A DNA stretch of 64,000 nucleotides from NCBI GenBank assembly GCA_963921825.1, contig OY997594.1, forward strand, positions 32,160,956 through 32,224,955, in the 5' to 3' direction. Source of the stretch: Erodium maritimum (Eukaryota > Streptophyta > Magnoliopsida > Geraniales > Geraniaceae). Below, piece by piece: positions 12,581 through 64,000 of the stretch. Below the pieces are notes generated by a model. It was given only the letters and a program-made list of their open reading frames with translations. It searched no databases and was not told where the DNA came from. The stretch's first letter is position 1; each line of letters opens with the position of its first letter. A program made the position numbers and the translations under genes.

Positions 12581-12764
12581 TTTTGGTGTCTTGGGGTTGT
12601 TGAGCCCGTGAGTTAAGTGGTTGTGTTTTGGGAGGCCATGATGGCCCGTGGGGTTGTTGAACCCGAGTCTTGACTGTTGAGGTGTCTTGAGTGACCTTGA
12701 GTGCCTGTTTGTTGAACTTGCTTGTGTTTGCCCGACCCGATTGTGTGTCGGGGAGTGGTGTGGA

Positions 12765-18123: not shown

Positions 18124-18156
18124 ATGAGGAGGAGGAGGAGAAGGAGGAGGAAGATG
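18124..18156 (+). repeat. GAG-rich microsatellite in the LINE 3' UTR
   Basis: A run of GAGGAGGAGGAGGAGAAGG type triplets. Confidence 0.7.
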
Positions 18157-22190: not shown

Positions 22191-22196
22191 TGCTAC

Positions 22197-23885
22197 TTAA
22201 TTAGAGAAATTAGTTCCAGGAAGACTTGGATCTTCAAAATCCTTGTCTAAATCTACAAACTCATCCTCAGAACCCACTTCAAATTGTACACTGAGATTCC
22301 TTTTATCCTCCAATAAACTTAGTTGCTGCAGAATTTCCTCTTCCTTGCCTTTAGCTTTTAGGCCTAAAGCTTTGCCAAAACCCCAAGCTTTCTTAGCTTC
22401 AGATGATAAGGATAAGAAGGAGATATCCTTTTGAGTCTCCTGCTGCAATGGCTGATGTCCTTATTTGATTTTTGACCTAGTTACATATTTGTGAGGGGCT
22501 GCATTTTTTACTTTCTTCTTTCTTTTCTTTAGGTTGGACAGTTGCTGATGAGGTGTGGTTGTCAGTCCCGTAAAATCTGAAACTTCATTCACTTCAGCTT
22601 GAATGAAGAGAGACTCAAAAGAGGGGGGGGGGGAGTTTGAAATTGGAGAGCCAAATTCACCATCACTGTTCAAGCTATTCAGCCCTTGTGGACCCAAGGA
22701 AATGGGCTGTAAAGAGCAAACATTCCCATCCATGTCAGCTGTGTTAGGTGTTTCATTTTCCAAAGTCTGAGAAGGCTCCATCCTTAATAAATGCTTGACA
22801 GTTGAGACAGGAGAAGAGAGGATTATAGCTTGCTGGTTTAGAGGCAGAGTTAGATCCTTCTGAATTTCTGACAAATTGTGACTGAGATTTAACCCAAACC
22901 CCTCATGAGATTGAATATGAATAGTTCTGCCTTCCAATGGAACTACTTCTTCAATTAAATTTCCAACTACTGTAGAGATTGGAGGGGGATCTGAACAGAC
23001 ACCAACCACAGCTGCAATAACTTCTCCCTCTTCAATAAACTCAACTCCTAGAAGACCAACATTCTCCACCTGAGAATTTATAACCAATACATCTGGACCT
23101 AAAAGTTCTTCAGCCCTGACACCAACAATATCTGCAATAACTTCTCCAACTTCAATATTTTCAGCTCCAAGCAGGCCATCAATCTCCACCTGGTTTCTTA
23201 AAATTAAATCATCAGATAGTTGATTTTTTGAGAGTACCAGGTCATTAGTTTCCTCAATCAAAGCTAACTCATTCTCAACCATTAGGTGAGCTACTGGCCT
23301 TAGCATTTTAGAGCATAGGTTCTGAGTATTTAAACCAGGAGTAGGAGAAATGAGAGGATCTCCATAAGATGAACTGGATCCACTGAGATTTGATGAAGTT
23401 CCTGATGTATAAGGAGATTGCAGAGGAGGGACTGCACTTCCTAATATAGAGGAAACCAAGACTTTAAACTCAGAATTTGCAAGAGTGATGAGAACCTCCT
23501 CAAAAATGGGCTTCAGATTTTTGTTGTGAATGAGAACATATGCAATGTCTATTTCCAAGGCTTTTTTAGATGAAGGATGAGTAAATAGGATGTCTCCAAA
23601 ATCAATTACAGCAGCTTGAAAAGTTTCCTCACACCATCCATGGTAGGGAATGCCTTGTATAGCTAACCAAATAAACCTCCCACCTTTTAGGCAAATATCA
23701 ACAGGGGTTGGGATTTGAATCATCCATTCTTTCAACCAAGCACCCTTATCAGAGAGAAGTTCCTTATGATATTCCGTATCTGGACAATGTACCATAATAA
23801 CTTTGTTTCCCAATGATTTTAGCAAGATTTCAGAGGCTCCTTGCATTGCAATTTCATGCTGCATTGCTTCAATACTAATATTCAA
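22197..23885 (-). pseudogene. LINE ORF1, RNA-binding/chaperone type
   Basis: The frame covers 563 codons with one internal TAA at 22461-22463 after YVTRSKIK. A conserved block, GGRFIWLAIQGIPYHGW, followed by ALEIDIAYVLIHN is shared with the copy at 32662-33357. The distal part, AWGFGKALGLKA, matches AAGIWDYCKALGLKA at 34008-34060. The middle is long, Ser/Glu-rich and variable. An 11-base G run lies at 22623-22633. Upstream, an ATG near 23922 opens MEDVTISFSLISLEY in another frame, so one frame change probably removed the natural start. Confidence 0.8.
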
Positions 23886-23935
23886 GTGAGATAAGGCTAA
23901 ATGAGATTGTCACATCTTCCATAATAGAGTAGGCC

Positions 23936-24295
23936 CATTCGATTTAAATTGTAGGTTTAATAAGCACTAATTTGTTTTTTTTAATATTACACTTAAACAA
24001 GTCAGGTGTTTTAATGGTATTAGACTGAATCGGGTTTAATATCCAAAAACATACTGAAACGATTGCCTCCTGCATGTTTTTTCCTCTTGGTTTTCCATGT
24101 AGTATGTGATAGATTTAATTGAGCTGAATCTTCCTAAATCGTGTACCATGACTTTCCCTAATGGCAAAGATGACCTTACGAACTTTGAGGTTCCAATCAG
24201 CCTAATGAACTATATAACTTTATGAGTTTTTTTATTCTATTATTATTTTGTTCAATTTTTTTTATAAGTTCAAAAAATTATTAGTAAGACTAATT
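23936..24295. other. AT-rich spacer, no gene seen
   Basis: Low-complexity AT-rich sequence between two LINE remnants. No frame or repeat end was recognised. Confidence 0.6.
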
Positions 24296-29577: not shown

Positions 29578-31265
29578 TGTTGGGTCTCGAGGTAGGGTTG
29601 GAGATGAACCAACTCGCAGCGGAAAATCAATAAAAACCAAGAGACGATTAAAACCATGAAACAACTAACAAAGAATGGATTCACAAGAGAAAAATTCAGC
29701 ACTATCTCTTACCAAAACAAGAACACCGGTTAACGAATGATTGGCTTGAGTCTCCAAGACGCCTACGTATCCACATGGGAATCAAAGCCACGTAGTTCTT
29801 CTCTTTGAGGACTCAAGAACACAAAAATGGAGGAGGAAACTAGCCAAACCCGAAATGGCCATGGAAGAGGGAGAGAAAATGTGTTTCCTATTCTTGTCTT
29901 GTCTTTGTTATGTTGAAAAAAGATGACTTAAACATAACAAAACCCATACTTGTCCAACTAAAGGCATGAGACAAGTATGGTGTCAAGTAAGGTGTAAATA
30001 GGACAAAGTATGGCAAGAAAAGATTGGGTTAGGTGGTGAATCACCAACACCTTAATCCTTGTCTTGCTTACTTAGTACTAATTAATCAAGACTTGATTAA
30101 TTAGTTCCATGGGCCTTGGTTGCATGGGCCTTTCATGGGCCTCTTGGAACATGGCCCGTGGCCATTTCCAACGAGGTCCCGTGATTCGCTCATCGCCTCC
30201 ATGCCTTCCATACCGGAAATGTCCAACATTATCCGACGCGATCAATCCCAAGACTCCAAGCCTTGTCTCGATCCGTAAAGTCCTATTCACTTACGGGCAC
30301 ATGACCCAAAACCCAGTTTTGGTCATGTCCCGAGACAACTCCCTTTTGGCCATTCTCCATAAATGTGTCAATGAGTTTCATCCTTCGGTGTGACCCTTAG
30401 GTTTATGCATGTCAATAGATCAACGTAAAATCCCATTTTACTTGATCCTATTTAAGTGGCAACTAACGAGACTTTAGTATTGCCTGACACTACATAACGA
30501 ATCGACCCTGTCGATTCTAACCTTTCCGTCGTCCCTGTCATTATCCTTTTATCTCCGATATCCTGATTGAGATAAGGCATAGAGCCGTCATCCTTATTAT
30601 TCTCAATCACCGTTCCTTGATATGTGAGATGACTGAAGATATGATACCCAGTATCATGTGCATGGCCATGCTATTCTTCCAGTCACTCTCGATCAAGCGG
30701 CCGAGAACCGATATCTTTCCCATACCTTAGTACGAGGGATAAATCCCTTAGCCGTCTTTCGTGTCACTCATGTAGCCCGTCCCCAAGCCAATCCTGGCCG
30801 TTATGGAAGCCCTGTTACGGACAACGTTAGGCTCAAGTCAAACTCAGTTGTTGACTACATAACGATCACAAAGACTCCTTGGTCTAAGGATACATAACAA
30901 GCTACAACACTGAATATGATCATGACTTAATCTATGACACATATTCAGGGCGGGTCGTCCAATATCATGTCCCACATGATATCTATGATCAGACTCCGGA
31001 ATCCCATTCCAATGACTAACAGAACGTAAGCCATAAAGAGCCATCTTTCATACTAGTCGCTTCTAGTGAAGCTTTGTTGACTAGGGACCCATCGAGTGTG
31101 ATCTATCTCGATCTATGGTTCTATTCGCATGGTGGGCATAGATCAGAGCACACATCGATATATTACTCCAACACATAAGTAATATAAAGCCGCTTTAATT
31201 TTATTGCTAACGATGATATATACATTTGGACATTTAGGATTGAACTACGGGCACTAAGACTAACA
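29578..31265 (-). mobile_element. solo LTR of the Ty1/copia family, minus orientation
   Basis: This 1688-bp segment begins TGTTGGGTCTC and ends GACTAACA, with a perfect ATAAG target duplication at 29573-29577 and 31266-31270. It is closely similar along its length to 1499-3021 and 59337-61246. It lies inside the gypsy chromovirus and is therefore younger. Confidence 0.9.
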
Positions 31266-41954: not shown

Positions 41955-42502
41955 ATACCACATCTTATTTGTTTTTTTACCAGTAAAGCGAATTTAAATT
42001 AAAACCTCTTTCGTGGTGAAAGATGAGTTACAAAAAGTGAGGCTTACAAAAGGAACCAACTATAGAGCAACCAAAGAGAAGATACGAAAACATATTTTTA
42101 GAACGCGCCGCACACGCCCCTTTTTTGGCGAAACCCTTATCCCATCGGCGACGCCGCGCATCTTCCTTCCCCTTTGCGATGTTCGCCTACTATGGATGCG
42201 TTTGAAACCCGACGAGGCCGTGGGCTTTTCCCCCACCCACCGGAAGCTCCCCGCGCGACTCTTTTCTCCAGGTCCGTCAGAAGGAGTCTCTTCTACCAGG
42301 TTCCACTTCTCATCTGATTTTTGCGATCTCGTATGCTTTTGATTCTCACTACTTTTGTCTCTGAATTTCCTTGGATGTCTTTGATTTTGTGGTCGACTGT
42401 ATCTCTTCATTGGCTGTGGTTTTTGTTGCTATTATTCTACATTCAATCAAGGGCTCTCCGTGCGGGGTTTCTATTTTAAGGGTTTGTTTACAGTAGTCCG
42501 GC

Positions 42503-43747
42503 ATGGAACTAGACTTTAGGGTCTTGGCCTGGAACGCCCAGGTTTTGGGTAGTGATATCCATAAGCACGAGTTAAAGGGTTACCTCAATCAATACTGCCC
42601 GATCGTGGTGTTTATCCCGAATACGTTTCTAAATGATGGAGCCCTTAAAATCCTCCTTAGAAATCTTGGATTCCACAAGGGGGACTTGGAAGGAAGCTGT
42701 TGGCAACCAGGGAGGGGTGACGATGTTCTGGACGGAGGGGTTGAATGTCAGACAAGGTCGGTGCACTGAACATTGCATTGATATAAATGTCACCCCGCCG
42801 GGGGGGGGGGGTTGAATTCTGTTTCACAGGGATTTACGGTGAAGAGAATCGGGCTAACCGACTTAGAGCCTGGAGGATGCTACGCGATATGGCAGGAGAG
42901 GACATGGGGGACAAATTGATTGTGCTGGGTGATTTTAACTGCATCTTGCATCCATTGGAAACCAAATGGGGGGAACCCCTACCCAAATCAACTCATACAG
43001 AATATCAGGGAGGTTATTGAGGATGTCAGGCTCGAAGGCATGCCAATGTAGGGTTACCAATTTACTTGGCATAGAGAGAAAAATCCTCTAAACAAGATTG
43101 ACACGAAGCTATATCTCGCAGATGTTTCTACACAGTTACGCCCAAGCCTCCCTCACAAATTTGGGGTACTCGACCTCAAACCACAAGCCGCTTCTTCTAA
43201 GTTTGGCCAAGGAAGAGAAGGGACGTAGACCCACTCGATTCCGTTTTGAGATTATATGGACGGAAGATCCTCAGTGTGTGCATATAATTTAGGAGGAATG
43301 GCATCAAAGTACGAATACTACAATGACAGAGAATATCCAAAGGGTTTCCCAAGCGCTCCATCAATTGGGGCATGATGTCTTTAGAATTACAAGTAGAAAG
43401 ATTAAGGCGTGTCAGAAGTGTTTGGTTATTCTCAATAGCCGGCTGGATAGACCGGGTATTATGGAAAGAGAAGCAGTTCAGAAACAGTACACGGTTTTGT
43501 TGAAGAATCTGGAAAACTTCTGGCGCCAGAGAGCAAAGAAACATTGGTTAGCAGAGGGGGACAAAAATTCTAAGTTTTTCTTCGCAACACTGGATCGGAG
43601 AAAGAGGCAAAATACAATCCAGGATCTGGAGGAAAATGAGGGGAGGACTCTCACTTGGGAAAATGACTTAAGGCTTTCATTACTACATATTTCAGGGACA
43701 TCTTCAAAACCTCGTTTACAGATGAACACACTTGGTCGTTTGAGGTT
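42503..43747 (+). pseudogene. LINE ORF2, first part: endonuclease and start of RT
   Basis: The frame opens MELDFRVLAWNAQ and shows the endonuclease blocks LIVLGDFNCIL and TSNHKPLLL (family SDH changed to SNH). It continues with a helical linker ending KKHWLAEGDKNSKFF, the block that precedes reverse transcriptase in plant LINEs. Frame changes occur near 42770 and 43010 and stops near 43050 and 43290. A G12 run at 42800-42811 sits at one of the frame changes. Confidence 0.8.
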
Positions 43748-43923
43748 TGTAATAAATGTGGGAGACTAAGGGGCACCCATTAGTGGTCCTAGAAGTCTAA
43801 GAGTCACCCATTAATGATCCTACCATTATTGGGGTAATTGAAGAGTCATGTAATTGTGTATATATTTCTAGTTTCTATGTATATTCAGATCAAGTGGAAT
43901 AAGAACAACTTCTTATTTATTCA
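43748..43923 (+). repeat. 5' LTR of the copia element
   Basis: 176 bp, TG...CA, 96% identical by eye to the 3' LTR. Confidence 0.93.
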
Positions 43924-46900
43924 TGGTATCATAGCAGTGGTTATTAGCTCTGAGGGATTAGGGAATTTAGGTGGGCCTCCATTGGTGCCCCGTTGTGCAC
44001 GTTTACTGCCCAGGTGTGCAGGTGTGTTTTTTCGTTCATATTATTTTCTCACCTCCTATCCCATAAGGTAGAGGATCTTTTGGGTTGCCTATATCTGAAA
44101 TTTGAGACCCATCCAACCACCACCGGAATCTCACTTGCCTGTAGAAGTTAAGGTGTTTTTGAATCTGTTCGTATCGTTTTACAAGGCTCCAGTGCTTTTT
44201 TTATCTCACCTCCGGCGAGTGAAACCGCCCGCCCGCGAGCTTCTGGATTTTTTCGTCGCCGCCGCCATGCACCTAGTGAAAACAGTGGCATTGTTCCCTC
44301 TCTTCTGGCAGCCTGATTCGGGTATTTTTCATCTATTTTTATTCTACTTTTTACCTCTTTGAATGGCCGAAGAGACTAAAAATAGTTATTTTGATGGAAA
44401 GTATCCCCACAATGTCCCGAATAACCGATCCAAAATTGTCTGGACCAAATTATCCAGGTTGGTCAAAGAGTGTTCGCATTTATTTACGAAGTATTTCAAA
44501 GGATGATCACTTTTCTGATGACCGCCCTGTTGATGAAGAAGCTAAGAAAGAATGGGTGCGTGATAATGCACGAATGTTCCTTGAAATCAGGAACTTTATT
44601 GATCCAAAAATGGTTAGTTTGGTTAACCATTGTGAGTATGTCAAAGAGTTGATGGAGTATTTAGACTTTGTTTATTATGGGAAAGGGAATGTTGCTCGTA
44701 TTTATGATGTTTGTCAGGGATTTTATCGTGTTGAGCAAGGAGGGCAATCCCTACAAACCTATTTCATGAACTTCAAGAAGACTTACGAGGAACTAAATGC
44801 AGTAATGCCTTTACGCACAGATGTTAAGATTCAACAGACACAGCAGGAACAAATGGCGATAATGAGCTTTCTTGCAGGACTTGGCTCTCAGTTTGAGTCG
44901 ACCAAATCTCAAATCCTTTCTAGCACAGAGCTAACCTCGTTGGTTGAGGTTTTTAGAAGAGTTCTTCGTACAGATACCCAAAAAGGAGAGGTGTCATCTA
45001 CCCCCGAGGTCCACAATGTTCTTATTGGTCACTCACGCGGTCCTCTCAATTCTCGCCCTTATGGGAGAGGCGCTCACAAGGGAAGTGGACGAGAAAGTAA
45101 TCATGGTCGTTGGAGTAGTCGAAATCAAGAGACAGGGGGAGTTATCCGCTTCCATTGTAATGAACCAGGACATACCAAGAGATCGTGCCCAAAGTTGATC
45201 CCACGATCATCTGTCAATGTTGCTGCAACTTCTTCTGATCAGACCATCACTATATCTACAACCGAGTATGACCGTCTTCGCCAGTACCAGGATACATCCA
45301 CGTATTCATCTCACTCTGTCACCTCTGCCGCTGAGTTAGGTAATCTACCTAAGTGCCTCGTTTCGTCCCAATCCCCTTCTCAATGGGTCCTTGATTCTGG
45401 TGCCACAGATCACATGACAGGTAACCCTAAATTACTTGACACTTTTGAGCCTCGTACTTCATGTTCTTCTGTAAGCTTAGCTGATGGTTCTCAGTGCCCT
45501 GTTCTCGAGCCTGGGACGGTCCACCTCACACCAACCATTTCCTTACCTTCGGTCTTAAGCTTACCTGGATTTTCTTTTAATTTGATGTCCATCAGTAAAG
45601 TTACTCGTGCCCTAAATTGTTGTATCTCATTTTATCCTGATCATTGTCTGTTTCAGGATCTTTTGACGAAGTGGATTATTGGTAAAGGACATGAGTTGGG
45701 GGGGGGGGAGGGTTTACATCATGCATACCGAGAAACCCGCACCACCAGTCGCTTGTTCAGCCTCCTTAACCGTACTTAAAGCACATTGTCATTCTAGACA
45801 TCCATCTCTTCCCACCTTGAAGAAGCTTTATCCCAGTTTGAGAAGGTAAAATATTTTGATTGTGAAGCATGTCAGTTTGCTAAACATCATCATCTCCCCT
45901 CTACTCCTCGAGTCAAGAAAAGAGTCAACTCTCCTTTTGAATTAGTCCATTCTGATGTTTGGGGTCCGTCCCCTATAGTGTCTAAAACTGGGGTTCGGTA
46001 TTTGTTTCTTTTGTGGATGATTTTTCTCGAACTACATGGCTTTATTTCATGAAAAATCGGTCTGAGATATATTCTCATTTTACTGCCTTTTGTGCTGAAA
46101 TACAAACTCAGTTTGGTTCTAATGTTCGTATTTTGAGAAGTGATAATGCCAAAGAATACTTTTATGACCATTAACTACTTACATGGCCCAAAATGGTATT
46201 CTTCATGAATCATCTTGTGTAGATACCACGTCTCAAAATGGCATTGCTGAAAGAAAGAATAGACATCTTCTTGAAATTGCAAGAGCCCTTTTATTTCAAA
46301 CTCATGTACCAAAATGTTTTTGGGCTGACGCTGTCTCCACTGCATGTTTTCTCATCAATCGTATGCCTTCATCTGTCCTTCAAGGTGACATCCCGTATCA
46401 AGTCTTGTTTCCCACCAAACATCTTTTTCCTATTACTCCTCGTATCTTTGGGAGTACATGTTTTGTTCATGATGTTCGTCGTAATCGCACGAAACTGGAT
46501 CCTAAGTCTGTTAAATGTGTTTTCTTAGGGTATTCCCGGTTACAGAAAGGATATAGTTGTTATTGTCCTGATCTTCATCGATACCTTGTCTCCATTGATG
46601 TCACTTTTATTGAATATTATCCTTTCTTTTATTTGGAAATTCCTCACACTCCACGATAGGGGGAGACCGATGACTTGTTAATCTACCACATCTCTCATCG
46701 AGAACCGATTGTACCTGCACCTCCTGTTTTATTTTCCACCACACCGACACCATCAGTTATTCTGGACCCGCCACCACCACCACCACCACCGCCACTGCCT
46801 ATCCGTTACATTTATTCCCGTCAACAAGCACCTCCCGCTACATGTCCGGAGCCAAGTTCCTCTTCGCCACCAGATCCTAACGACCTCCCCATCGGCCTTC

Positions 46901-48524
46901 GCAAAGGCAAACGACAGTGTACATATCTTATCTCTTCCTTTATGTCATATGATGAATTGTCTCCTTCATCATGTTCTTTCATAGCCTCTATTGATTCAGT
47001 CTCGATTCCTAAAACTATTCATGAGGCACTATCCCATCCTGGCTGGCGTTCAGCGATGACAGAAGAGATGAGTGCACTGGATGCGAATGGTACTTGGTAG
47101 TTGATCATGTTGCCTCGCGGGAAAAAAGGCTATTAAATTTAACTCTGATGGCTCTGTTGCACGCCTTAAAGCTCGACTCGTGGCCAAAGGCTTTGCTCAA
47201 ACTTATGGGGTGGATTACTCTGATACTTTCTACCCTGTTGCTAAGCTGACCTCTGTGCGGTTGTTTGTCTCTTTGGCAGCCACTTATGATTGGCCTTTAT
47301 ACCAACTGGATATCAAAAATGCTTTCTTGCATGGGGACTTGCATGAGGAAGTCTATATAGAGCAACCTCCTGGTTTTGTTCCTCAGGGGGAGTGTGGACT
47401 GGTATGTCACCTTCGGAAATCATTATATGGTCTTAAACAGAGTCCTCGAGCTTGGTTCGGAATGTTTAGCCAAGCAGTTGAAAAGTTTGGAATGAACAAG
47501 AGCAAGTCCGATCATTCTGTATTTTACAGGAAATCTTCAACATGTGTTATTCTTCTAGTTGTATATGTGGATGAGATTGTTATCACTGGCAGCGATAACT
47601 TGGGCATCTCTTCGCTGAAGTCTTTTCTCCACAGCCAGTTTAATACCAAAGACCTGGGAGTCTTGAAGTACTTTCTGGGAGTAGAAGTATAAAGAAGCAA
47701 GAAGGGCATATTCTTATCTTAGAGAAAATATGTTCTTGATTTGTTATCAGAAACTGGGAAGCTAGGAGTCAAGCCATGTTCTGCCCCATTACCTCAAAAT
47801 ATGCAACTCGTGAAAGAAGGTGAACTATTTGAGAATCCAGAGAGGTACATAAGAATTGTGGGGAAACTGAACTACCTTACGGTAACTCGACCTGATATTG
47901 CATATTCAGTAAGCATCGTAAGTCAGTCTATGTCCTCCCCTATTGTTGAACACTAGACTGCTCTTGAACATATTCTGGCATATCTAAAAGGAGCACCAGG
48001 ACGTGGTTTACTCTACCAGAACCACAATCATACTCATATAGAATGTTTCACAGATGCAGATTGGGCAGGATCCAAGATTGATCGACGATCCACGTCGGGA
48101 TATTGTGTATTTGTGGGAGGAAATTTAATCTCGTGGAAAAGTAATAAACAAAATGTTGTCTGACGTTCTAGTGCAGAATCAGAGTATAGAGCCATGGCTC
48201 AATCGATTGCTGAGATAATGTGGATCTATCAACTGCTTTCAGAACTCGGTCTCAAAGTCTCCATGCCAGCAAAATTATGGTGTGATAATCAAGTTGTTAT
48301 TCATATTGCCTCAAATCCCGTATTTCATGAACGAACCAAGCATATTGAGATTGACTGTTATTTCGTCCATGAAAAGCTATAGCAGAATTTGATTACCACC
48401 GCATATGTACAGACCAGAGAACAATTAGGAGATATGTTCACCAAAGCACTTACAGGTACTCGGGTTGATTATCTTTGTAACAAGCTGGGCATGATTAACA
48501 TCTATGCATCAGCTTTAGGGGGAG

Positions 48525-48700
48525 TGTAATAAATGTGGGAGACTAAGGGTCACCCATTAGTGGTCCTAGAAGTCTAAGGGTCACCCATTAATGATCCTAC
48601 CATTATTGGGGTAATTGAAGAGTCATGTAATTATGTATATATTTATAGTTCCTATGTATATTTAGATCAAGTGGAATAAGAACAACTTCTTATTTCTTCA
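48525..48700 (+). repeat. 3' LTR of the copia element
   Basis: 176 bp, TG...CA, preceded by a purine-rich tract. Confidence 0.93.
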
Positions 48701-48705
48701 AGGTT

Positions 48706-50463
48706 CAAGCCCATGTGACAGATGCGCAGAATCAAATTCGTATGAGAGAACTTATTCCAAGTGAGCCAAATGAGGTATGGGCGGCGATGTTTCAAATGGG
48801 CCAAACAAATCCACGAGCCCGGACAGTCTTAACCCTTATTTCTCCTAAAGATATTAGAGCATTCTTAAGGACCAAGTCACCTTGTTTATTTAGAGCGCGA
48901 TTGAAATGAGGGAATTCCCGGCTGCTCACAATGAAATAACTTTGGTGCTTATACTAAATAAGTCGGCCCCAAAGAAGATCACGGACCTCCGGTCGATTGC
49001 CCTGTGCAACGTCATATTCAGAGTATTATCTAAGGTACTAGCAAACAGACTGAAAGCTAAGCTACATGGCCTTATCTTGGAAAACCAAGGAGCCTCTGTA
49101 CCAGGTCGATCAATCCAAGACAATATTTGTACAAATTTTGAGGTCATCCATTGCCTAAAACGCAGGATGCAAGGACAGAAGGGATATATAGCACTTAAAC
49201 TGGATATGATAAAGCCTACGATCAAGTTGAATGGAATAATTGGAGCAGATGATGATCAAAATGAAGTTCAGGAGTGTGTGGATCAATTTGATGAAGGCGT
49301 GCATTCTTTCAGTCTAGTATAAGGTAGTTTCGGAAGGGAGGTCTACGGATATGATTTCACCGGTAAGAGGAATCCGCCAGGGTGATCCGTTATCCCCGTA
49401 TCTATTTTTATTTTGTATGGAAGCCTTATCTTGCTTGTTGAACCAGGCGGAAGAGAATGAGGACATCCAAGGGGTTTTAGTCGCTAGGGGGCCCATCGGT
49501 TTTACATATGCTATTCGCGGATGACTGTTATATTTTTTACAGGGATGATGATCTATACACTAAAGCTTTGCAGGATATCCTGCCAATTTTTGGGAGTATC
49601 TTGGGCCAACAAATTCACCGGGACAAGAGCTCGATCTTTTTCAGCACCAACACGTCAGTAAGTAACATACATCTTTGTTGCAACAATCTGGGCATACGAG
49701 AGATATTAGAAGCCTCCACGTATCAGGGGGTCCCAAATTTTATTGGGAGAAACATAACTTTAGCTCTTCAGTTTATTGCAGATAAGGTTATATCCCGGAT
49801 TGGAACTTGGGATAACCAACTTTTGTCTCAGGGAGGGAAGGAGGTTCTTATCAAATGAGTTCTGACAACACTCCCGGTCTACACAATAGGGGTGTTCTTA
49901 CTGACCCAATCCCTTATATCAACTATTCATGTGGCTTTGGCCAGATTCTAGTGAGTAGGGTCGGCGAAATCCAACAGGCTTATAATTTGGAAATATTGGC
50001 ACAAGCTCTGCATTCCCAAAGCAAAAGGAGGTATGGGTTTTCGAGACTTGATCGATTTTAATCTATCCCTATAAGGGAAAATGGGATGGAAATTCTTGAC
50101 AGATGCAAGAGCGCTAGTGTCCATAATTTTCAAAGCAAGGTACTTCCCGAATGGGGATTTACTAACGGCGGGAAGAGGAAATGGCCCTAGCTTTCTTTGG
50201 ACCAGCATTAGAGCAACACAAACGTTACTTACTCACGAGGCTAGGAGAGTAGTGGGATAGGGAACATCTGTAAAAATTCTGGGCGATCCGTGGTTGATAG
50301 GGGGAGACTCGTGGGTTCGGACATCGGGGGACGAGATGTCAGGGTGTGCATGGATCCCTTTTCTTACCAGGTAAGCGGGAATGGGATAAGGAAAAAATAA
50401 GAGCAAATTTCCTAAGTCCGGATCAAGAGGCTATTCTGACTATCCCATTATTTGCCATTGGAA
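48706..50463 (+). pseudogene. LINE ORF2, second part: reverse transcriptase
   Basis: Visible blocks are DLRSIALCNVIFRVLSKVLA (48988), ENQGASVPGRSIQDNI, GYIALKLDM (49186), RGIRQGDPLSPYLF (49366) and the catalytic LFADDCYIFY at 49508, which keeps both aspartates. Frame changes occur near 49210 and 49320-49500, and several stops follow after 49858. The sequence runs into the CTGAT target site of the solo gypsy LTR and resumes at 56702. Confidence 0.85.
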
Positions 50464-51304
50464 CTGATTGTCACGCCCCAAATCCGGTTTTGACCGGACT
50501 CGAGACGTGACCTGAGTTAATAATAGAAAGATAATAAACAATTGATAAATCCTTTAAAATTTCAAACAAACTCCATCAAATACTCATAAATAAATAATCC
50601 AAAAACTTCAAATATGAGTCAAAGCTCAACATAAAGAGTAAGATAAATAGTGTTTAGTACAAACGACCAACACAACTCTATAATAATCCCCAAGACATCC
50701 AGAAGCTCTCGAGCCTCGAACTCACTAGACATCAGGTGCGCCTGTAAAAACAGTCAGAAAAACCATAAGGGTGAGCTTACGCTCAGTAGGAAAAATCGTA
50801 AACAACTCAACCTTTAGATCAATAATAACACTGTTTTAACAAGATAATGCAAATAACGATTTAATTATGATTAACAATGAAGTGCTAGTAACACTTTAAA
50901 TACTATTAACCAATGGAACACTAATAATCAGAATGAATGAGAAAAGTGCCATATTCTTAAAGATAGCAATAACTTAAAAAGATCCATGAAAATTACTATA
51001 AATGTATCATAACTACTAAAATGGGGACAATTAGTAACACACCAACCACTTGCTTTCTCAAGCCTCCGATCCACGGATAGATTCTGGTGTCACATCGGTT
51101 CCCATATTCGATCCACCAGAGTACCCATATCATATCAGATTTTCCCTCGGTCCAGAGGCACATACATCGGGGCACCGGAAACCATCCCAAAGGGACGCTC
51201 ATCGTCGGAATTCTCGGAAATGCCTCCAAAGGACCATATGTCATAGGGAACCAAGGTAGTGCTCCCGTAGGAGGCATACACTTGGATGAAACCACAAGTA
51301 ACCA

Positions 51305-51460
51305 TTTCCCCGCAGGGTAAACCATCCAATTGCCCGCAGGCTCCGAAATCAATGCCCCGCAGGGTCCAATAATCAATGCCCGCAGGCTCCAATAATCAAT
51401 GCCCCGCAGGCTCCAATAATCAATGCCCGCAGGCTCCAATAATCAATCATTATCCCGCAG
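51305..51460 (+). repeat. ~23-bp tandem repeats in the solo LTR
   Basis: Five to six copies of CGCAGGCTCCAATAATCAAT with CCC or CC linkers. Confidence 0.8.
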
Positions 51461-52849
51461 GATCTGCCAACACCAACGACTATAACACCACCAGATTACG
51501 CCCCCCCCGGTGTAAGTACCCTACCGAACAACCAAACATCTTAAGAACAAGAATAAGGGAAACACAGAATAACACATCAATCAACCAACGCTTATTAAAT
51601 CACACTTTCACCACAACACACCAAAGACACCCATTTAATCCTCACACTTACCGTTATATTTACCTGTCACGATCCATCGGTCCATCAATCACCTGATCGT
51701 ACCGTTTGGCACAATCAGTCATACTCGATCATCCGTTCAAGTATTCAATCATTCAACATTCAATCAATCGACCAATCATATAAACATTCAATCAATCAAT
51801 CAAGCATACGATTTAGCTAGTTTCGTTAGACTCTTAACTTATCCAAACTAGGCAACCAAGCATGTGAACCTAAAACAACAACTAATCTGAGGGCTCATCA
51901 CGGCCTCTCTACCAGTAAAACAATTCCCAAGTATTGAAAGCGATTTACACTAGTTATTCTCATCCTATGCATGCATACTAGACACATCCGGTTATTAGTA
52001 ATTGAAAGACGATTATTCTAGTTATTCGCATCCTATATGGAATTCTAGGACCTTTCCGATTTTATTAACCTAATAGGCACACTAGTAATGAAATACTCGA
52101 GTAGTTAGGACTTTCCCTACCTTGAGGTCTTCCTCTAAAACTCTGCTGTAAAGCTGGTTAGTCGCTCCTCCGTTCTTCACACGGGTTCCAGAGTGATCTT
52201 CGTCTCTCTAGCTCGGGTCCAAGGCCTTTCCTTCACTTGAGCTCGGGCTCACGGTCTTGGACCACAACAATACCAATGTCACGCCCCAATTTCAGTAAAC
52301 CGAACTCGGGACGCGAACATTTAAAATAATAAAACATTTTGAAACCATTTTCATTAACCCACTTTAAAAAAAACCATTTGTTCAACAAAATAATATTTAC
52401 AACTTAAAACACGTCCCAACAAGTGGACATAGTATGGTATCCGTTGCTAGACTCAAAATAAACCCAGAAAATCCCGCTCCTAGCTCTTTAAGCTTCGGAA
52501 GCTCACCTAGTCCAACCTGCGATCGGTACCTGTAGGAAAAGTAGCTAGGGGTGAGCGTTCGCTCACCACCACGGATAACAGACTGACTACGGCATAATTA
52601 GCAGACAATGCCAGTAACACCAACAATAAACTCAACACCGGGGAAACTATCCCCAACCCAAGTACTCCGACTGACACACGCCCATTGTTACCTTCCTTGA
52701 CCAACTCAACACTTTGACACATAAAGTAGACCCGACACAACGATCACGACCTCTTCCAAGGACTCAAAAGAAAGCTACGCAACACCAAACAAGATCACAA
52801 AGGATCGCACACCAAACAAGATCACAAAGGATCGCAAACCAGCCGCCAA

Positions 52850-53060
52850 CTGCTCAGTGCCAAGAACGCTCACACCCTGCCGAGACTCTAACTCAATCAG
52901 GCCAACCCAAGAATGCTTGCAACTTACCGAGACTCTAACTCGTAAGCCAGCCGGAGAATGTTTGCAACTTACCGAGACTCTAACTCGTAAGCCAGCCAAA
53001 GAATGCTTGCAACTTACCGAGACTCTAACTCGTAAGCCAGCCAAAGAATGCTCACAAACC
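52850..53060 (+). repeat. ~45-bp tandem repeats in the inner solo LTR
   Basis: Units of GCAACTTACCGAGACTCTAA plus CTCGTAAGCCAGCC recur about four times here and again singly at about 53521, 53637 and 53685. Confidence 0.8.
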
Positions 53061-53184
53061 CAAACCACACACGCGCGGCCAGGACCCCTTTATTGGCGGG
53101 CGGGCCCCCTACCCCGTCTGAACATGCTGACGCGTGTGCTCGTGGACCCCCGTTTCATGAAGCGGGCCCCCAACCTCAAGTAAC

Positions 53185-53214
53185 CACAATCACAATCACA
53201 ATCACAATCACAAG
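53185..53214 (+). repeat. CACAAT microsatellite
   Basis: Four perfect CACAAT units followed by CACAAG. Confidence 0.85.
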
Positions 53215-53234
53215 CAAGTTCAACAACCAGTAAC

Positions 53235-53850
53235 AACGCAGGTTCAACACTCACAGGCACTCATGGCCACCCAAGACACCAACAGAAGAACACGGACTCA
53301 ACAACCCCACATGCACTCACGGCCTCCCAAGACACACCAACAGTAAAGACACGGGCTCACAACACCACGGGCACTCACGACCACTCAAACCACCAACAGT
53401 AAAGACACGGGTTCAACAACCCCACATGCACTCATTGCCACCCAAAACACCAATGGTAAAGACACGGGTTCTACAACCCCACGGGCACTCATGGCCACCC
53501 AAAACCCAACAATAAAACACGCTCGCAACTTACCGAGACTCTAACTCGTAAGCCAGCAAAAACACCAAAGGTAAAGACACGGGTTCAACAACCCCACGGG
53601 CACTCATGGCCACCCAAAACTCAACAATGAAACACGCTCGCAACTTACCGAGACTCTAAATCGTAAGCCAGCCAAAGAACGCTCGCAACCTCCCGAGACT
53701 CTAACTCGGTCAGGCCAGCCAAAACCCCAACAGTAAAGTACGGGCTCTCATGGCCACCCAAACACAAATAATAACACGGGCTCTCATGGCCACCCAAGAC
53801 TCAACAATAATAGCACGGGCTCTCAAGGCCACCCAAGACACCAAATAAAC
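53235..53850 (+). repeat. ~37-70-bp repeat array in the inner solo LTR
   Basis: About a dozen diverged units with CATGGCCACCCAA and ACACGGGTTCAACAACCCCA. This is the reverse complement of the GGTGGCC array at 12282-12580. Confidence 0.75.
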
Positions 53851-55684
53851 AAACAACCTCCGGCTTAACCAAAGCCTCCAACAGTCCTAATATCGATAAG
53901 TTCACAAACAACCTCCGGGCATGGTCATATGCCTCCAGTAATTCTAACAACACTAAGTTCTCTGCTCCTACGACACTACTAAGTGTCACATGCATTTCCA
54001 ATATTCGCTACGTTCCCGTATCATGCCTTTCTAATATTCGATAACCTACTTAACCCACGACACCCCGGTGTCACATGCAATTCTACTGTTAACTTTCCCT
54101 AGTCAGGGCCGAGATCCGGCTACTTTTCCCTACCTCGTGCGTGTTCTCCCAAAAGCCAACCAACGAGCTCCGGTGATTATCTCAGTCACTCACCCAGCTT
54201 TCCCTTGCCTCGGTCCGTGGCACGATCTAAAAGAACACAATTTAAAGGCACTTAACAACTCGCAAGAATAAACTGAAAATCATTAAACTTGATGCCCAAA
54301 TTTAATCCCGACAATGTCGATCACTCCCAAACTTTCCAAATACTCGACATTGTCGATAAGGGACCCGTAAAGGCCCGATTCGCCCGACATGGCGAATCTG
54401 CCCGGGTTTTGTAAATGCCCTTCCGGGGCTCCAAAAATTCCCGTTTTCGTTTCTACGGTCTTAGAATAATTCAAGGGTCCCAATGCATTTGACGGAATTG
54501 AATTCCGACTTCCGAGTCAATTAATTAATGTTTAAAGTTTCTAAACCGATAAATACAACTTTCGCATTTTAATTCCAAATTTCGATTCGGTTATGGATAA
54601 ATTATTCGGGGAACGTCCTAAACCACCCAAACACGAAACCCTAATTCCCGAGCGTGTGGGCCCCACCCGGCCATCCTTGGAAAATGTTCCTTTTCGCCCC
54701 AAAACGTTCCTAACGAACTCCAATCCTTAACCCAACCTTAATCAACACATCTAAACTCAAACCCTAAAATTCAAACGTTCCAAAATGAGAAAAAATATGG
54801 GTTCTTACCGTAGGTAATGACGAGGGGAGTTCGAATCTTCAATCGTTGAGTCGATCGGTCGGTCGGGTCGTCGGGAAATCACCAAAAACCCAACCTTCTT
54901 CTTCCTTTCTCTCTCTTCTTTTCTCTTTCTTCTCTCTCCTAAATTCTGAAATTGCCGAACCATCTCACTCTCTTCCCCTTTTGTTTTGTTTTAAAAATCA
55001 AACCACACATCAAAATGACAAAAGTACTCTTACTTTCCCTTTTTCTTTAGTTTTAAGTCAAAGGGAAAAGTTATCCCCTTTTCTTCATTCCATCACATTC
55101 ATGACAAGTGGCAAAATGGGTACCACCCCTTTTTGGAAAAATATCTACTAGATATTTTCCAATCAGATTCGCGCAAATCGGACATTTCGGGCCCTGAACG
55201 GGCACTTTTTCCCAAAAATTACGAAATCTGACGGGCTACAAGGAAACGGCTCAACTAAGACCGCTGCGATGACGGCTAAGCTTTTTGGATCCAAAACGGT
55301 CCTCGAATGGACCAAAACGTCGCTCGGTTGACTTTTCCAGCGAGAAGTCAACTTTTCCGAAAACGGTCAGAAAGTTGCCCTGAGTCCCCCAGAACTCACT
55401 TTGGTCGATAATGGGGTCAAGTTAAGTCTGGTATGACTCTCGGGGTCATTTTATGTTCAATTAAGTGTTTGTCTTAAAAATTTTAAATTTTCCTGTTTTT
55501 CGCAGGTTTGACTGGCGTTGACCGGGAGTGGTTATTACAACCAAAATTAGTAACCCAACGGAGTGTTCCTCAACCAAAGATTACAGAACAATCCTCAAGC
55601 AATGGAAACAAGGTCAAAGAAGTGATCTAGAAATCGAAATGGGCTAAAAGGAAGGGTTTTTGGATCTAGAGGTCTGATCTGGAA

Positions 55685-55915
55685 GGTGGCCCTGACCGTA
55701 GCACAGGCCGTGCCAGAACCTGGCACGGACCGTGTCACAGACCGGCCCGGTAACCAGCACGGACCGTGCGGCACACCGGCCTGGAGTCTGACACGGACCG
55801 TGCGAGGTTCCGTGCCGGACTCAAGCCCGTTCCGCGCAGCACGCCGTGCCGGTACCTGGCTCGTTCCGTGCGGCCTGCCGTGCCGGCACAGGGCCCGGTC
55901 CGGGTCACGCTCCGT
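55685..55915. repeat. GC-rich cluster of CACGGaCCGTG palindromes
   Basis: The near-palindrome CACGGACCGTG occurs at least three times, with many partial versions such as GTTCCGTGC and GCCGTGCC. The region is far more GC-rich than the rest of the LTR. Confidence 0.7.
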
Positions 55916-56701
55916 AGCGAACCAGTCCAGGTTCTCCCCCAGCTCGAGTTTCATGAAAATCAAATCAAAAACCACATTTCCAACCTACTTCACTACTTCT
56001 TCTCCAAGCAACAACCAAAATTGCTAGTTCTTCAACTTCAAGCTAAAACCCACAAAAACCAAAATTGGAGAGTAGATGAAATGGAGAGTTAAGAGCATCC
56101 ATACCTCTAGGAAGGTGAGATGAAGAAGATGGAAGGAAAATGGAGGAGAAATGACCAAGAACAAGCTCCAAAATGCAAGCTTTCCTCTCTTTCTTCTTCC
56201 TCAAGAAATGAGCTCTTCTCTTCTTTTCCCTTTGTGATTTTCGGCTGCAACAACAATGAATGAGCTGAGTAGTGTGCTCATGTTGCTTTAAATGACCTAT
56301 TTTGTTCAATTACCAAAAATCCCTTAAGGTCATATCTCTTTAAAGGTAAGTTGGGAGGGTATAAGAGTCAATTGAAGCTCCTTCTTCATCCTCCAAGTCA
56401 AACATGACAAGTGTCATGTGGGGTCACTTCCACTTAATTAATTTCCATCTTTCCAAGATTTTATCGGAAAATAACCGATATAAAGTCCAAGTTTGACCGA
56501 AATTTGACCTAACCAATATTACAATCAAACTGAAGGAAATGGCCCAACTAAGCTAACCGTGATGACGGCTAAGCTTTTTGGGCCCCGGAAAGGTCCCAAA
56601 TGGCTTCCTGAGCCATCGGTTGACTTTTCCTACCAAAAGTCAAACTTGTCTATAATTCACCGATTCGACCGGGATCGAGCGGGAGCGGTTCTTACACTGA
56701 T

Positions 56702-57622
56702 GATTCATGGTATTGGGCTGCAAATGATAAAGGCCTCTATACAAAGAAATCTGGATATAGTTTAAGCCAACAAATGAAGGGAAATGAGTTTCAAGCGCCC
56801 TTGGAGACTTTTTGGACAGACACTTGGAACATAGAAGTGCCCCCCAGAATTAAGGTCTTCTTGTGGCGGTGCCTAACGGATTCGCTCCAGGTTGCAACCG
56901 ATCTCTTGGCTAGGTGTGTACCAATATCACCCCTCTGCCCTATTTGTTTGACGGAACAAGAGTCCACAACTCACCTCCTTCTTCATTGCCCGTTTGCAAA
57001 GGGTTGTTGGGAACTGTTGGATCTTACCATAATTCACACTCCTGGGATAACTTTCATGGAATGGTGTGGAATGATGACGGTTTTCTCCCAACAACAATGG
57101 CTATCTCAACAAAAATTCATTATGAAGCATGAAAGGAGGCAAACCTTAAGCCACTGGGAATTAGCCTTGGGGATCAGCCGCCGCCGACCTCATTTATCTG
57201 CCAACCTCGACTGCAGCTATAAGGATCCACACGGACGGGGCCGTGTTTAATAATAAGAATAAGTTGGGATGGGCTTTCATCTCTAGAGACCAGACATGAA
57301 GGGTTCTGGAGGCCAGGAATAGGACGGTAGAAGGTACTCTATCGACCTCCTTGATTGAGGTAATTGCTCTTAGAGAGGCCCTCCGATGGACAAAAGAGGC
57401 CAATATCCCAATGATTGATGTGTATTCGGATGCACAGGTGGTGATCAACTTAATTATTGAAGGCCTACTGCTTAACTCCTTGCTTGGAGGGATAATTCAG
57501 GATTGCCAATAGTTAGTTCATGAGATCGAGTCTGCTAAACTCGTGTTTGTAAAGAGGTCAGCGAATGCTGTAACTCACTGGCTAGCCAGGGTTGTAGATT
57601 CTATGTTTGTCCCTACGTGGTA
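56702..57622 (+). pseudogene. LINE ORF2, last part: zinc-binding domain and RNase H
   Basis: The segment resumes with DDSWYWAANDKGLYTKKSGY, then IEVPPRIKVFLWRCLTDSL, and a zf-RVT knuckle, CPICLTEQESTTHLLLHC. A frame change near 57130-57200 leads to an RNase H domain with LGWAFISRD, EVIALREALRWT, VYSDAQVVINLI and KRSANAVTHWLAR, ending near 57622. Two further stops lie at about 57288 and 57511. A C-terminal RNase H is known for one group of plant L1-type LINEs and distinguishes this LINE from the one at 17671-23935. Confidence 0.85.
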
Positions 57623-57850
57623 ATGGTACCCCCCCCATGAGGCACTTATATGTATGTTGTCAAATGGAAGTCCTTGAGCAATGATATTGTAAAAAAAACT
57701 ATAGAGCAACCACACAACCAAAGATTAGAGGAGACTAGCCCCAACCAATTAGCTTGCACTCCAAGCTACCCAAGGGCTAAAGTAACAAAACCCAAAAAAG
57801 TAACCCAAGTACCATGATACTAATAAAGAACTCAACACCTTATTTGTTGA

Positions 57851-59336: not shown

Positions 59337-61246
59337 TGTTGGGTCTAGAGGTAGGGTTGGAGATTAACCAACTCGCAGCGGAATAACAGTGAAAACAAGA
59401 GACCATTAAAGGCATGAAACAACTACCAAAGAATGGATTCACAAGATGTAAATTGAGCACAAGTTTATTTAGCATCTTGTTCAAGTGGCTCAACTTTCAG
59501 CTCGTGTATCTGAATAACGAACCATTGAAATCCAAATTCCACCAATCACTTTGAAGATCCATATGTGTAGAACATTCACTCCAAGAATTAGCTTCATCGA
59601 ACCTTGGATGAAACACTCGATCGGGCTCTTGAAAGCGGATGGTCGGACAAAATCTTGGCAGATAGATTTTTCTTCTTGTTTCTCCCAATTTAGGAACAAC
59701 GGGTAAAGAATAATTTGGATAGAGTCTCTAACACGCCTACGTATCCTCCAAGGAATCAAAGCCATGTAGTTCTTGAGTTTGAGGACTCAAGAACACAACT
59801 ACCATGAACTTTTGGGTGTCTTGCCAAAGAGGGAGATGAAGAGAAAATTGTTGTGCTGAAATTTCTCTCTCTCTCTTCACTTTTATGCATATGTTGATTT
59901 GACTAAGTGTCTTGCATGTAGAGATAAGTGGTGTCCAACACCTCGTCAATCTCCCATTATTTTTCATGTGTCAAAGTTGATTAGGATAGTGGACTAATAT
60001 CTAATTAGTTAGTTAGTAACTAACTAAGTTAACTAATATAGTTAGAAGCTTTTAGTCAACCCTTGACCAATTGTCTTCTTGGGCCTTTGGTGACATAGGC
60101 CGCCCAATGGGCCTCTTGGGTGTTGGCCCACCGCCCATTCCCAGAAAGGTCCCGTGACGTGCTCATCGTCGCCAAAAGCCATCCACTTCGGATATGTCCA
60201 ACATTATCCGATGAGATCGATCCCAAGACTCCAAGCCTTGTCTTGATTTCTAATATCCTAATCACTCACGGCTTATGACCCTAAACCTAGTTATGGTCAT
60301 GTCCAGTGTCAACATCACGCTTGCCCATTTCTCCATCAGTTGTGTTAATGAGTTTCATCCTCCGGTGTGACCCTTAGGTTTATGCATATGAATGTCTATA
60401 GATCAACGTAAAATCCAATTTTACTTGATCTTATATAAGTGGCAACTAACAAGACATAGTATTGCCTGACATTGCATAACAAATCGACCATGTCGATTCT
60501 AACCTTTCTACCGTCTATGTCATTATCCTTTTATCACTAGTATCCTGATTGAGATAAGGCATAGAGTCGTCATCCTTATTATTCTCAATCATTGTTCCTT
60601 GATATATGAGATGACTGCATATATGATACCTAGTATCATGTGCATGACCATGCTTTTCTTTCAGCCACTCTCGATCAAGCAGTCGAGAAACGATATCTTT
60701 CCCATACCATAGTATGAGGGATAAATCCCTTAGGCTTCTTTCGTGTCACTCATGTCGTCCGTCCCCAAGCAAATCCTAATCGTTATGGAAGCCTAGTCAC
60801 GGTGCAATGTTGGGATCAGGTCAAACTTAGTTGTTTACTGCATAACATTCACAAAGACTCCTCGGTCTAAGGATACATGACAAGCCACGACACTGAATAT
60901 GTTTATGACTAGATCTATGGAACATATTCAGGGTGGGTCGTCCAATATCATGTCCCACATGATATCTATGATCAAACTCCGGAACACATTCCAATGACTA
61001 ATAGAACTAGGCGATAAAGAGTCATATTTCATACTAGTCGCTTCTAGTGAAGCTTGTTGAATTGGGACCCATCAAGTGTGATTTATCCCGATCTATGGTT
61101 CTATTTCTTTTGTGGACATAGATAAGAACACACCTCGATATGTTACCCCAACACATGAGTAACACATAAAGCCGATTTATTTATATTGCTAACGATGATA
61201 TATACATTTGGACGTTTACCATTGGACTACAGGCAGAAAACTAATA
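59337..61246 (-). repeat. 3' LTR of the minus-strand copia element
   Basis: The left boundary TGTTGGGTCT matches the two solo LTRs. The right boundary is placed at CTAATA before ATCTCCCACTTTCCC, by alignment to CTAACA in the solo copies. Confidence 0.85.
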
Positions 61247-64000
61247 ATCTCCCACTTTCCCTAATTCCAATCTAAACTCCAATCTATATCCATTGACCTT
61301 ACATGCTTCTTATTTCTAGGCAACGACAATGCCTTTGTCAAAGGGTCGGCTACGTTATCATCCGTTGCAATATAGGTGATCTTCACATCGCCTCGGCTTA
61401 GTATTTATCTGATGAGGTGATAACGCCGCAGTACATATTTGGATTCGTTATGGGATCTGGGATCTTTAGCTTAAGCAATGGCCCCAGTGTTGTCGCAAAA
61501 TGGATTCACCGGGCTTAGGCCAATTTTTAATTATGCCTAACACAGCCGTGAATTTCCTAATCCATATAGCCTTTTAGCTTCCCTTACAGCACCTATGTAC
61601 TCAGCCCTTGTCATAGAATCGGCGATAGTTTCATGCTTCACGCTCTTCCAGCTGAAAGCACTGCCATTCTGCGTAAACATATGTCCTGACTAACTTCTAA
61701 AGTCATTTGGATCCGTCAAGAAAACTAGCGTCTACTCTTCCTTCGGCGACTAGTTCAGCATCATCTTTCCCAAGGGTTAGACTGATGTCTACTGGTACAA
61801 CACAGAGCATACGAGACGTCCGGTCTCGTATATGTCATGACATATATGATCGATCTCGCCCCTCTAAGATGCATGGGATTCACATCATTCTTTTCAGCTC
61901 ATCAGGTGTTTTAGGAAACTGAGTCTTGTTGAGATTAATGCCATGACTAGCGGGTAAGAATCTTTCTTTGAATCGAGCATTGAGAACCTACTCAATGCCT
62001 TATTCATATAGGCGCTCTGACTTAAACCCAAGACCCTCTTGGTGCAATCTCTATATATCTTAATCCCTAAGATATAAGTAGCATCGCATAAGTCTTGTAT
62101 TGCGAAATACTTCCTCAACTGAGCTTATAGTCTCGTGCAAGGTTGGGATGTCGTTACCAATAAGCACCAGAAAGGCAATCTTGCTCCCACTAGCCTTCTT
62201 ATAACCACAAGGGTCATCTTCATACTTAATGAAGCTAAATCTAATTACCGCTTCATCAAAACAAAGGTTCCAACTCCGAGAAGCTTGTTTCAATCCATAA
62301 ATGGATTTCAACAAATTATAAATCTATCCATTATTCTTCGGTTCGTCAAAAACTTCGGGCTGAGACATACAAACGTCCTCAGTTAAATTCTCATTTAAAT
62401 ACGGTTTTGACATCAACTTGCCATATCTCGTAATCAAGATACGAGACTATGTAAAGAAGAATCTGGATAGATTTGACCGTATCCACTAGTGAGAAGGTTT
62501 CCTCATAGTCAATCCCTTGGATCTGCCTATAAACTTTCGCAACCAGTCAGGCTTTAAAGGTCTGAGGGTTTTTGTCCATGTCCATCTTCACCTTGAAGAC
62601 CCATTTGTATCCGATGGTCCTCACACCATCGATGGGATCAACCAATTCCTAGACTTGGTTGTCCGACATGGACTGCTTTTTCTGCCTTATGGCTCCCAGC
62701 CATAACTCGTTGCCGGGCCCATCCACGGCTTCCTGAAAGGTGGCTGGATCCTCGTGATCCACTGTAAGCTAACCATCACCTCTAGATACAAAATAACCAT
62801 ATCTCGGAGGTGGGTGACTGATCCTTCTAGATCGCCTTAGACTTTCAGGAATTGCTACATGAACTAGTTCTTGCTCTACGACCACTTCAGGCTCCTCTAC
62901 TGGGTTTTCAAGTGGTTCAGATGCATCTGTACCATCTTGAACTTCTTCTAGATGTACAACCCTCCCACTGACGTCTTTGGAAACAAATTCCCTTTCCATA
63001 AAGACCCCAACCATGTTCTCACTGGGTTTGTAGAAGTAGTATCCCCTTGTTCCTTTGGGATACCCCACGAAGGTGCATTTCTCTGATCTTGGTTCGAGCT
63101 TAGTCAAAACCAAACGTTTCACATAAGCCTGGCAACCACCGACCCTCATGAAGGACAAAACGGGCGATTCAAAATGAATATGGGCGTCTCTAGAGCATAA
63201 CTTCAAAAAGAGATATGGAGATCAATCCATTGTCCAACAATGTTCGATTTCTCCGTTCGGCTACACCTTTCAAATGCGGTGTCCCGGGAGGATTCCATTT
63301 CGAAGGATACCATTCACTTTTAGATGATCTAAAACTCTATGGTCAAGTATTCTCCACCTCGATCTAATCAAAGTGCCTTAAAACCTTTCCCGATCGGGTT
63401 TTCTACTTTAGTCTTAAACTCTTTGAATTTTTCAAAAGTTTCAGACTTATGTCTCATCGAATAGACACAATCATATTTACTGTAATCATCAGTAAATGTG
63501 ATAAGGTAGCTAAAACCCCATTGGCAAGCGAACTTATTGGTCTACACACATCCTAATTTTATCAGCCCCAATAATTCACCCGCCCTCTCACCGCGATCGA
63601 TGAAGGGCGCTTTAGTCAGTTTTCCCATTAAACACACTTCGCACCTATCAATCGAATGAAATTCGAATGGACTTAAAAGTCTGCACTTTTGAAGTGCTGA
63701 TATGCATTTTTGTTTATGTGGCCCAAACGACAATGCCATAACAAAGTTTGGTTTAAATCGTCAGATTTAGACCTGTTAGTATTAACCTTATATAGAGCTT
63801 GAGGCATTGTTACCCATATCCAATATGTAAAATCCTCCGACCATGTTAGCATTATTACAAAACATATAATTGCATAGAATATTGAAAATCCAATTTCCAA
63901 CATCAACATTATATTTCGGTGCCTAACACGGATACAGATATAATGTTCCTATTAAAATAGATGTGCAATATACACTGTTTAGTACAAAACAAAGCCACTT
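59337..64000 (-). mobile_element. Ty1/copia element with long LTR, minus orientation, runs off the window
   Basis: The 3' LTR (59337-61246, 1910 bp) is related to the two solo LTRs at 1499 and 29578. Next to it is a polypurine tract reading AAAGTGGGAGAT on the minus strand, then, moving right, RNase H (61260-61920), reverse transcriptase (62060-62740, with KSIYGLKQASRSWN), integrase C-terminus (62769-63206), integrase core remains (63210-63600) and the zinc-binding/GAG-pre-integrase region (63600-63900, with LWHCRLGHI). Gag and the 5' LTR are beyond the window. The coding part is broken about ten times, so this is a fossil. It inserted into the gypsy fragment at 59336. Confidence 0.88.

Follow-up and report, generated by a model that had tools for sequence, protein, structure and literature searches.

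The locus considered here lies in a 64,000-nucleotide stretch of Erodium maritimum DNA (contig OY997594.1, positions 32,160,956 to 32,224,955), referred to below as the window. Between 42059 and 57712 the window holds three plus-strand pieces of a LINE separated by LTR-type insertions. The first piece begins with a 5' region of 429 bp (42074..42502, +), measured from the left target duplication to the start of ORF2 at 42503, in which no ORF1 was found; a block shared with paralogs starts within it at 42101 (+) with GAACGCGCC. It continues into ORF2 part 1 (42503..43747, +), which is the endonuclease region by position, is collinear with paralogs, is broken in frame and ends with AGGTT. ORF2 part 2 (48706..50468, +), also frame-broken, carries the reverse transcriptase (RVT_1 at about 48969-49193) and ends with CTGAT. 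Part 3 (56702..57697, +) contains zf-RVT (about 56738-57010) and the RNase H region, and runs through a short 3' end into an A-run. The pieces 42074-43747, 48706-50468 and 56702-57697 measure 1,674, 1,763 and 996 bp, counted unjoined and with one copy of each duplication included; their sum of 4,433 bp agrees with the length of 4.4 kb given in an earlier note on this DNA.

The earlier note had read the pieces as a single LINE bounded by a 15-bp target duplication. The repeat, ACTATAGAGCAACCA, is present at two places in the window and no others, 42059..42073 and 57698..57712 as claimed, and together with the preceding A it forms a 16-bp match that was not equalled in score or length in shuffles of the upstream stretch (0 of 300 and 0 of 500). 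The right copy had been said to follow an A8 run: an A-run does stand directly before it, with seven A's, the eighth being the first A of the repeat itself. The LINE, bounded by the duplication of 15-16 bp, was inserted into the tail of an older LINE on the opposite strand. The 3' part of that tail, with its A-run, is the insertion target at 41972..42073 (-), and its 5' part is at 57713..57834 (-). For an empty-site comparison, the two flanks were put together, keeping the repeat once, and searched against paralogous copies of the older tail. Several of these match straight over the insertion point (the repeat occupies query 122-137), including C2:45797715 with 77% identity over query 39-221 and C1:64710092 with 78% over query 61-223. 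The flanks of the repeat thus join, as had been proposed, to restore an older LINE tail of which other copies are unbroken. The older tail seems to have a degraded duplication of its own: the left copy, ACATCTTATTTG (41960..41971), matches the right copy, ACACCTTATTTG (57835..57846, read from the sequence), at 11 of 12 positions by eye.

Three later insertions had been invoked for the gaps, and each has its exact 5-bp duplication sitting on LTR-type ends: AGGTT at 43743-43747 and 48701-48705, CTGAT at 50464-50468 and 56697-56701, and ACCAA at 52272-52276 and 55540-55544. The first is a copia element (43748..48700, +) with LTRs at 43748-43923 and 48525-48700, each 176 bp long and differing at 7 positions. 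Between them lie a PBS-like TGGTATCATAGCAGTGG, which we take to be tRNA-Met-like, a purine tract, and matches to Pol_BBD and RVT_2 (2.7e-56); with two TG..CA LTRs, a 5-bp duplication, a PBS and a copia reverse transcriptase, it is a copia LTR retrotransposon. The second is an LTR element that is now a solo LTR containing another solo LTR. The outer one (TGTCACGCCCC...TTACA; 50469..56696, +) measures 2,960 bp once the inner LTR and one ACCAA are subtracted, and the inner one (52277..55539, +) is 3,263 bp long and belongs to a many-copy family, some copies of which occur as same-strand pairs a few kb apart. Their ends and duplications, and for the inner one the paired copies, support the LTR nature of both solo LTRs; the label 'gypsy', applied to them earlier, has no coding part in the window behind it. 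The relative order proposed for the locus holds from the old tail to the LINE, then to copia and the outer LTR, and then to the inner LTR, with copia and the outer LTR not orderable against each other. Nesting of this kind is commonplace. Diverged or partial extra copies of both solo-LTR families are also present in the window at 11367-13658 (-) and 13759-16678 (+).

The assignment of the three pieces to one LINE can be checked against its paralogs. All three ORF2 pieces match the LINE copies L009, L011 and L012 collinearly at 70-76% identity, in the order claimed for them. When the pieces were searched separately against L011, the identities were 72, 73 and 76%; piece 1 ends at L011 position 5223 and piece 2 starts at 5246, and the end of piece 2 and the start of piece 3 coincide at 6989. 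With these offsets, as expected from one duplication copy, neither insertion point is interrupted in the paralog L011, and the matches do not divide among different LINE families. LINEs adjacent to or nested in one another are common in this genome (L013, L014, L041), so that three coding stretches might in principle derive from different insertions and stand in order by chance. Such a coincidence is refuted by the recurrence of the same paralogs in order, the offsets exact to the duplications and the continuity of L011, and we assign it practically no probability.

Pfam searches were run on stop-free frames of the LINE stretches. ORF2 part 3 matches zf-RVT at 5.9e-18, and part 2 matches RVT_1 at 1.2e-6 and 28.8 bits, just below the cut-off of 29.6; in relatives, the RVT_1 match reaches 3e-15 (L011) and 3e-26 to 6e-34 (L031-L033). 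The match to RNase H (RVT_3, 1.2e-10) lies in the paralog L012, in the stretch aligned with part 3, and the window copy itself gave none. Similarly, no endonuclease match was obtained in the broken ORF2 pieces of the window, and the paralog L009 gave PF03372 at 0.0036, below the cut-off. Part 1 is open at 42497-42769 and 43293-43769; with a threshold of 90 aa, the open pieces of the LINE are 90-208 aa long, and two extend into LTR sequence. The window copy is dead. An Rfam search of the window gave no match.

Close relatives were collected by searching the genome (763 Mb) with the first LINE piece, which gave 40 scored places including the window; 20 of the other 39 were fetched. BLAST recognised the conserved 5' block ahead of ORF2 in 16 of the 21 copies, the window included. 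Its distance from the ORF2 start is at most about 530 bp; L010 and L024 are exceptions, with foreign DNA intervening (LTR-like in the former, gag-like frames in the latter, by reading and without a domain search). The BLAST search for the block did not recognise a 5' end in L009, L012, L016 and L017, and that of L028 was placed by eye only; for these, the fetched 4 kb may fall short of the true 5' end. Duplications were seen in L011 and L022 (13/14 each, equalled by 2 and 4 of 300 shuffles, thus modest) and more weakly in L025 (14 of 300 shuffles as good), and none was found in L014, L012 or L016. ORF2 is broken in all 20 close relatives, so that the case for function of this exact subfamily comes from more distant kin.

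To look for ORF1, seven ORF1 queries were compared by tblastn with 27 upstream regions (those of the 20 fetched loci, L030-L033, L040, L041 and the window). In none of the 27 was ORF1 found as part of the element, and 22 gave no match at all. Matches in L009, L032 and L040 are antisense, and those in L013 and L041 are sense but within units that have a separate poly(A) end. The same search missed a divergent 482-aa frame in a second LINE within the window and is therefore blind to unusual ORF1s; for this reason the argument for absence leans on the stronger evidence of a short distance from duplication to ORF2; in five copies (window, L011, L022, L032 and L033) it is about 430-600 bp. Since no ORF1 with DUF4283 and a zinc knuckle, the mark of a canonical L1, was found upstream of ORF2 in the window LINE, we file it as L1-like without ORF1 and not as a canonical L1. 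The earlier note had not remarked on this lack.

A separate observation concerns the outermost 5' nucleotides. In both ORF2-only copies and the ORF1-only copies described below, the 24 to 63 bp that separate the duplication from the conserved 5' start appear to be copy-specific: 27 bp in the window (42074-42100), 59 in L011, 49 in L022, 42 in L032 and 63 in L033, and 31 and 24 bp in the ORF1-only copies L067 and L069. Perhaps this stretch is flank carried along by transcription starting upstream of the source copy.

More distant relatives (L030-L033) have longer open ORF2 frames, again with a short 5' region directly before ORF2. The start of that region is defined by copies sharing it for L032 and L033 (about 510-535 bp), and was judged by eye for L030 and L031. 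A fifth distant relative, L029, no longer has its 5' part and was left out of the count. Among 40 scored places for each, the sharp 5' start of L033 (query 515-518) is common to 6 other copies and that of L032 (query 521-529) to 5. Both elements are bounded by exact duplications, of 15 bp in L032 and 19 bp in L033, and both are frame-broken in places. Between L032 and L033, ORF2 is 70% identical and the 5' block has no BLAST similarity.

These starts bear on whether the elements could be 5'-truncated LINEs that merely appear complete, the GC-rich block then representing the 3' part of an ORF1 now lost. LINE copies usually end up 5'-truncated, and L009 and L029 do look truncated or replaced upstream. 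Against this, independent copies have a sharp start in common (the 6 at 515-518 and the 5 at 521-529), and the 5' blocks of L032 and L033 are dissimilar despite 70% identity in ORF2, whereas the ORF1 end of canonical LINEs is conserved. We regard truncation as a quite improbable explanation.

Most other matches to L032 and L033 go no further than about 100 bp from the ORF2 start. Where ORF2 was as much as 94% identical and the upstream sequence different, the copies were suspected of carrying an ORF1; in the two that were fetched, L040 and L041, this was ruled out, as each has a different 5' region and no ORF1 of its own. Over the first ~600 bp of ORF2, L033 and L040, and likewise L032 and L041, are about 90-94% identical, and their 5' sequences differ beyond the last 20-45 bp. 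Such differences point to replacement of the 5' module. By reading, LINE units also occur head to tail, in the same orientation, behind the A-tail of another LINE unit at L013, L014, L031 and L041.

Canonical LINEs are present in the same genome. Six with long frames were picked from 150 scored DUF4283 matches, and ORF1 overlaps ORF2 in all of them; with a query spanning a canonical ORF1-ORF2 junction, 37 of the first 40 rows (self included) run past the ORF2 start into ORF1. In a tree of reverse transcriptase with 21 rows, a single branch (100/100) separates 15 ORF1-less from 6 ORF1-bearing rows. The rows are fragments of different extent, several of them partial, with L013 and L023 on long branches; fragments under 120 aa (L009, L016, L018, L019, L024, L025) were left out, and L015, L020, L021, L026 and L027 yielded no fragment. 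L012, L017 and L029 are labelled ORF1-less in it without a recognised 5' end. The tree is internal to the genome, without named reference LINEs, and the sampling followed similarity to the window element and long-framed DUF4283 matches and is no census. For the sampled copies, the lineage of the window element is distinct in its reverse transcriptase from the ORF1+ORF2 LINEs of the genome. Four comparisons among ORF1-less lineages gave pS of 0.79-0.87 and dN of 0.17-0.44; near-saturated synonymous sites at such dN indicate that the lineages evolved as functioning coding units and not as dead deletions.

An ordinary ORF1+ORF2 LINE from which ORF1 was deleted or spliced out in the window copy alone is a rival reading, to which both the canonical LINEs in this genome and the loss of segments by splicing known from human L1 lend some plausibility. 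The same organisation in many diverged relatives, and the coding constraint that the lineages have kept, argue against it and make it very unlikely. The sampled copies consist of a short 5' region followed by ORF2, the best of them are bounded by long exact duplications, and protein constraint between lineages is strong. We thus consider it highly probable that the pieces represent a single insertion, full-length at 4.43 kb, of an L1-like plant LINE from an ORF1-less lineage, composed of a 5' region, a single ORF2, a short 3' end and an A-tail.

The element shares with plant L1-clade LINEs the non-LTR reverse transcriptase, zf-RVT with a C-terminal RNase H (the latter by way of L012), and an A-tail with a long target duplication of variable length. 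To our knowledge, LINEs of the RTE clade have no ORF1, and they also lack zf-RVT, RNase H and an A-tail. The window LINE resembles them in having no ORF1 that we could find, but differs in its zf-RVT and A-tail and in the RNase H of its paralog L012, and with zf-RVT and RNase H present it falls outside that clade. Celine of poplar, a plant L1-clade element, is described as having an ORF1 with DUF4283 (1,617 bp) overlapping ORF2 (3,765 bp) (PMC11288735). Celine and the window LINE both have an ORF2 bearing reverse transcriptase, a poly(A) tail and a target duplication; Celine has an ORF1, whereas none was found in the window LINE. Ta11-type plant L1 elements have an added C-terminal RNase H (PMC5348765). 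Compared by that description, they are like the window LINE in that a cysteine motif and then RNase H end ORF2, and the difference is again that no ORF1 was found in the latter (PMC5348765). Among the matches listed in a literature search of titles and abstract openings, we found no ORF1-less plant L1 element. The ORF1-less L1-like LINE may accordingly be a new variant, with the reservation that coverage of the literature was incomplete and novelty is not established.

The genome also contains ORF1-only elements. The ORF1 unit beside L013 matches DUF4283 at 3.3e-15 and zf-CCHC_4 at 0.0013 (below the cut-off), and its ORF1 domain is 30-34% identical to canonical ORF1 domains. It has many relatives, scored by DNA (40 of 3,486 first-look candidates) and by protein (150 of 9,329, with open frames of up to 675 aa). 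Eighteen 3' ends were fetched, 16 of the family of the L013 unit and 2 like L041. In 16 of them the conserved 3' end is followed by a run of five or more A's, the exceptions being L047, with AAAGAAAA only, and L045, without an A-run; the DNA beyond the 3' ends shows no similarity among the 18. Of three copies fetched with both ends, two have exact duplications (17 and 21 bp) and one has none. The ORF1-only elements are about 2.45 kb long, with DUF4283, a zinc knuckle, an A-tail and exact duplications.

At L013 and L041, we considered whether the ORF1-only and ORF2-only parts form one composite element. This was rejected, since at L013 the ORF1 unit ends in a separate A-tail and shows a duplication of 13 bp, the A-run included; the idea is further weakened by a same-orientation LINE tail just upstream at L014 and L031 too (by eye). 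To the eye, some elements of the two classes have similar final letters ahead of the A-tail (TTATCTCAAAA and TTCTTCTCAAAA). A search for shared ends, with one 5' and two 3' parts of ORF1-only elements against 18 ORF2-only ends, gave chance-level matches (E 0.26 or worse).

In LINEs generally, the ORF2 protein nicks the target and, priming on the A-tail, carries out reverse transcription, from which a duplication results, and ORF1 is held necessary for retrotransposition of the L1 type. The anatomy of the window LINE fits movement by target-primed reverse transcription through its own ORF2 protein, in which case an ORF1-like RNA-binding protein would be either dispensable or provided in trans. 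Nothing may be needed in its place (as in RTE), or a host protein or the ORF1 of the ORF1-only elements might serve. Both ORF1-only and ORF2-only elements exist as complete units in the sampled copies. A tentative reading, which we think somewhat less probable than its negation, is a split L1 whose two halves propagate as separate many-copy retrotransposons, with their proteins acting in trans. ORF1-only elements could instead be riding on canonical ORF1+ORF2 LINEs, with the ORF2-only ones needing no ORF1. As the few ends compared share no 5' or 3' sequence between the classes, a split L1 is offered here as a hypothesis. A mammalian parallel to the ORF1-only elements is HAL1, an ORF1-only half-L1 whose partner L1 keeps both ORFs; the difference is that an ORF2-only lineage coexists with them in this genome. 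With a diverse lineage constrained in ORF2, in which no ORF1 was found in cis, beside free-standing ORF1 elements, a single genome allows tests of whether ORF1 is needed and whether it is supplied in trans. In annotation, LINEs of the window type, with a single ORF, would otherwise be scored as truncated.

Other features of the window include the second LINE mentioned above, at about 17900-24000 (-). Its 482-aa frame lies upstream of ORF2 and matches DUF4283 weakly (0.054), and it has matches to endonuclease (3.5e-10), reverse transcriptase (1.4e-28) and zf-RVT (1.6e-12); it is a two-ORF LINE of another kind. An uninterrupted 373-aa frame for a polyprenyl synthetase (5e-60) is at 6117-7238 (+), and a repeat of about 1.2 kb is present in three copies, 83-90% identical, at 1799-3021, 30046-31265 and 60052-61248.
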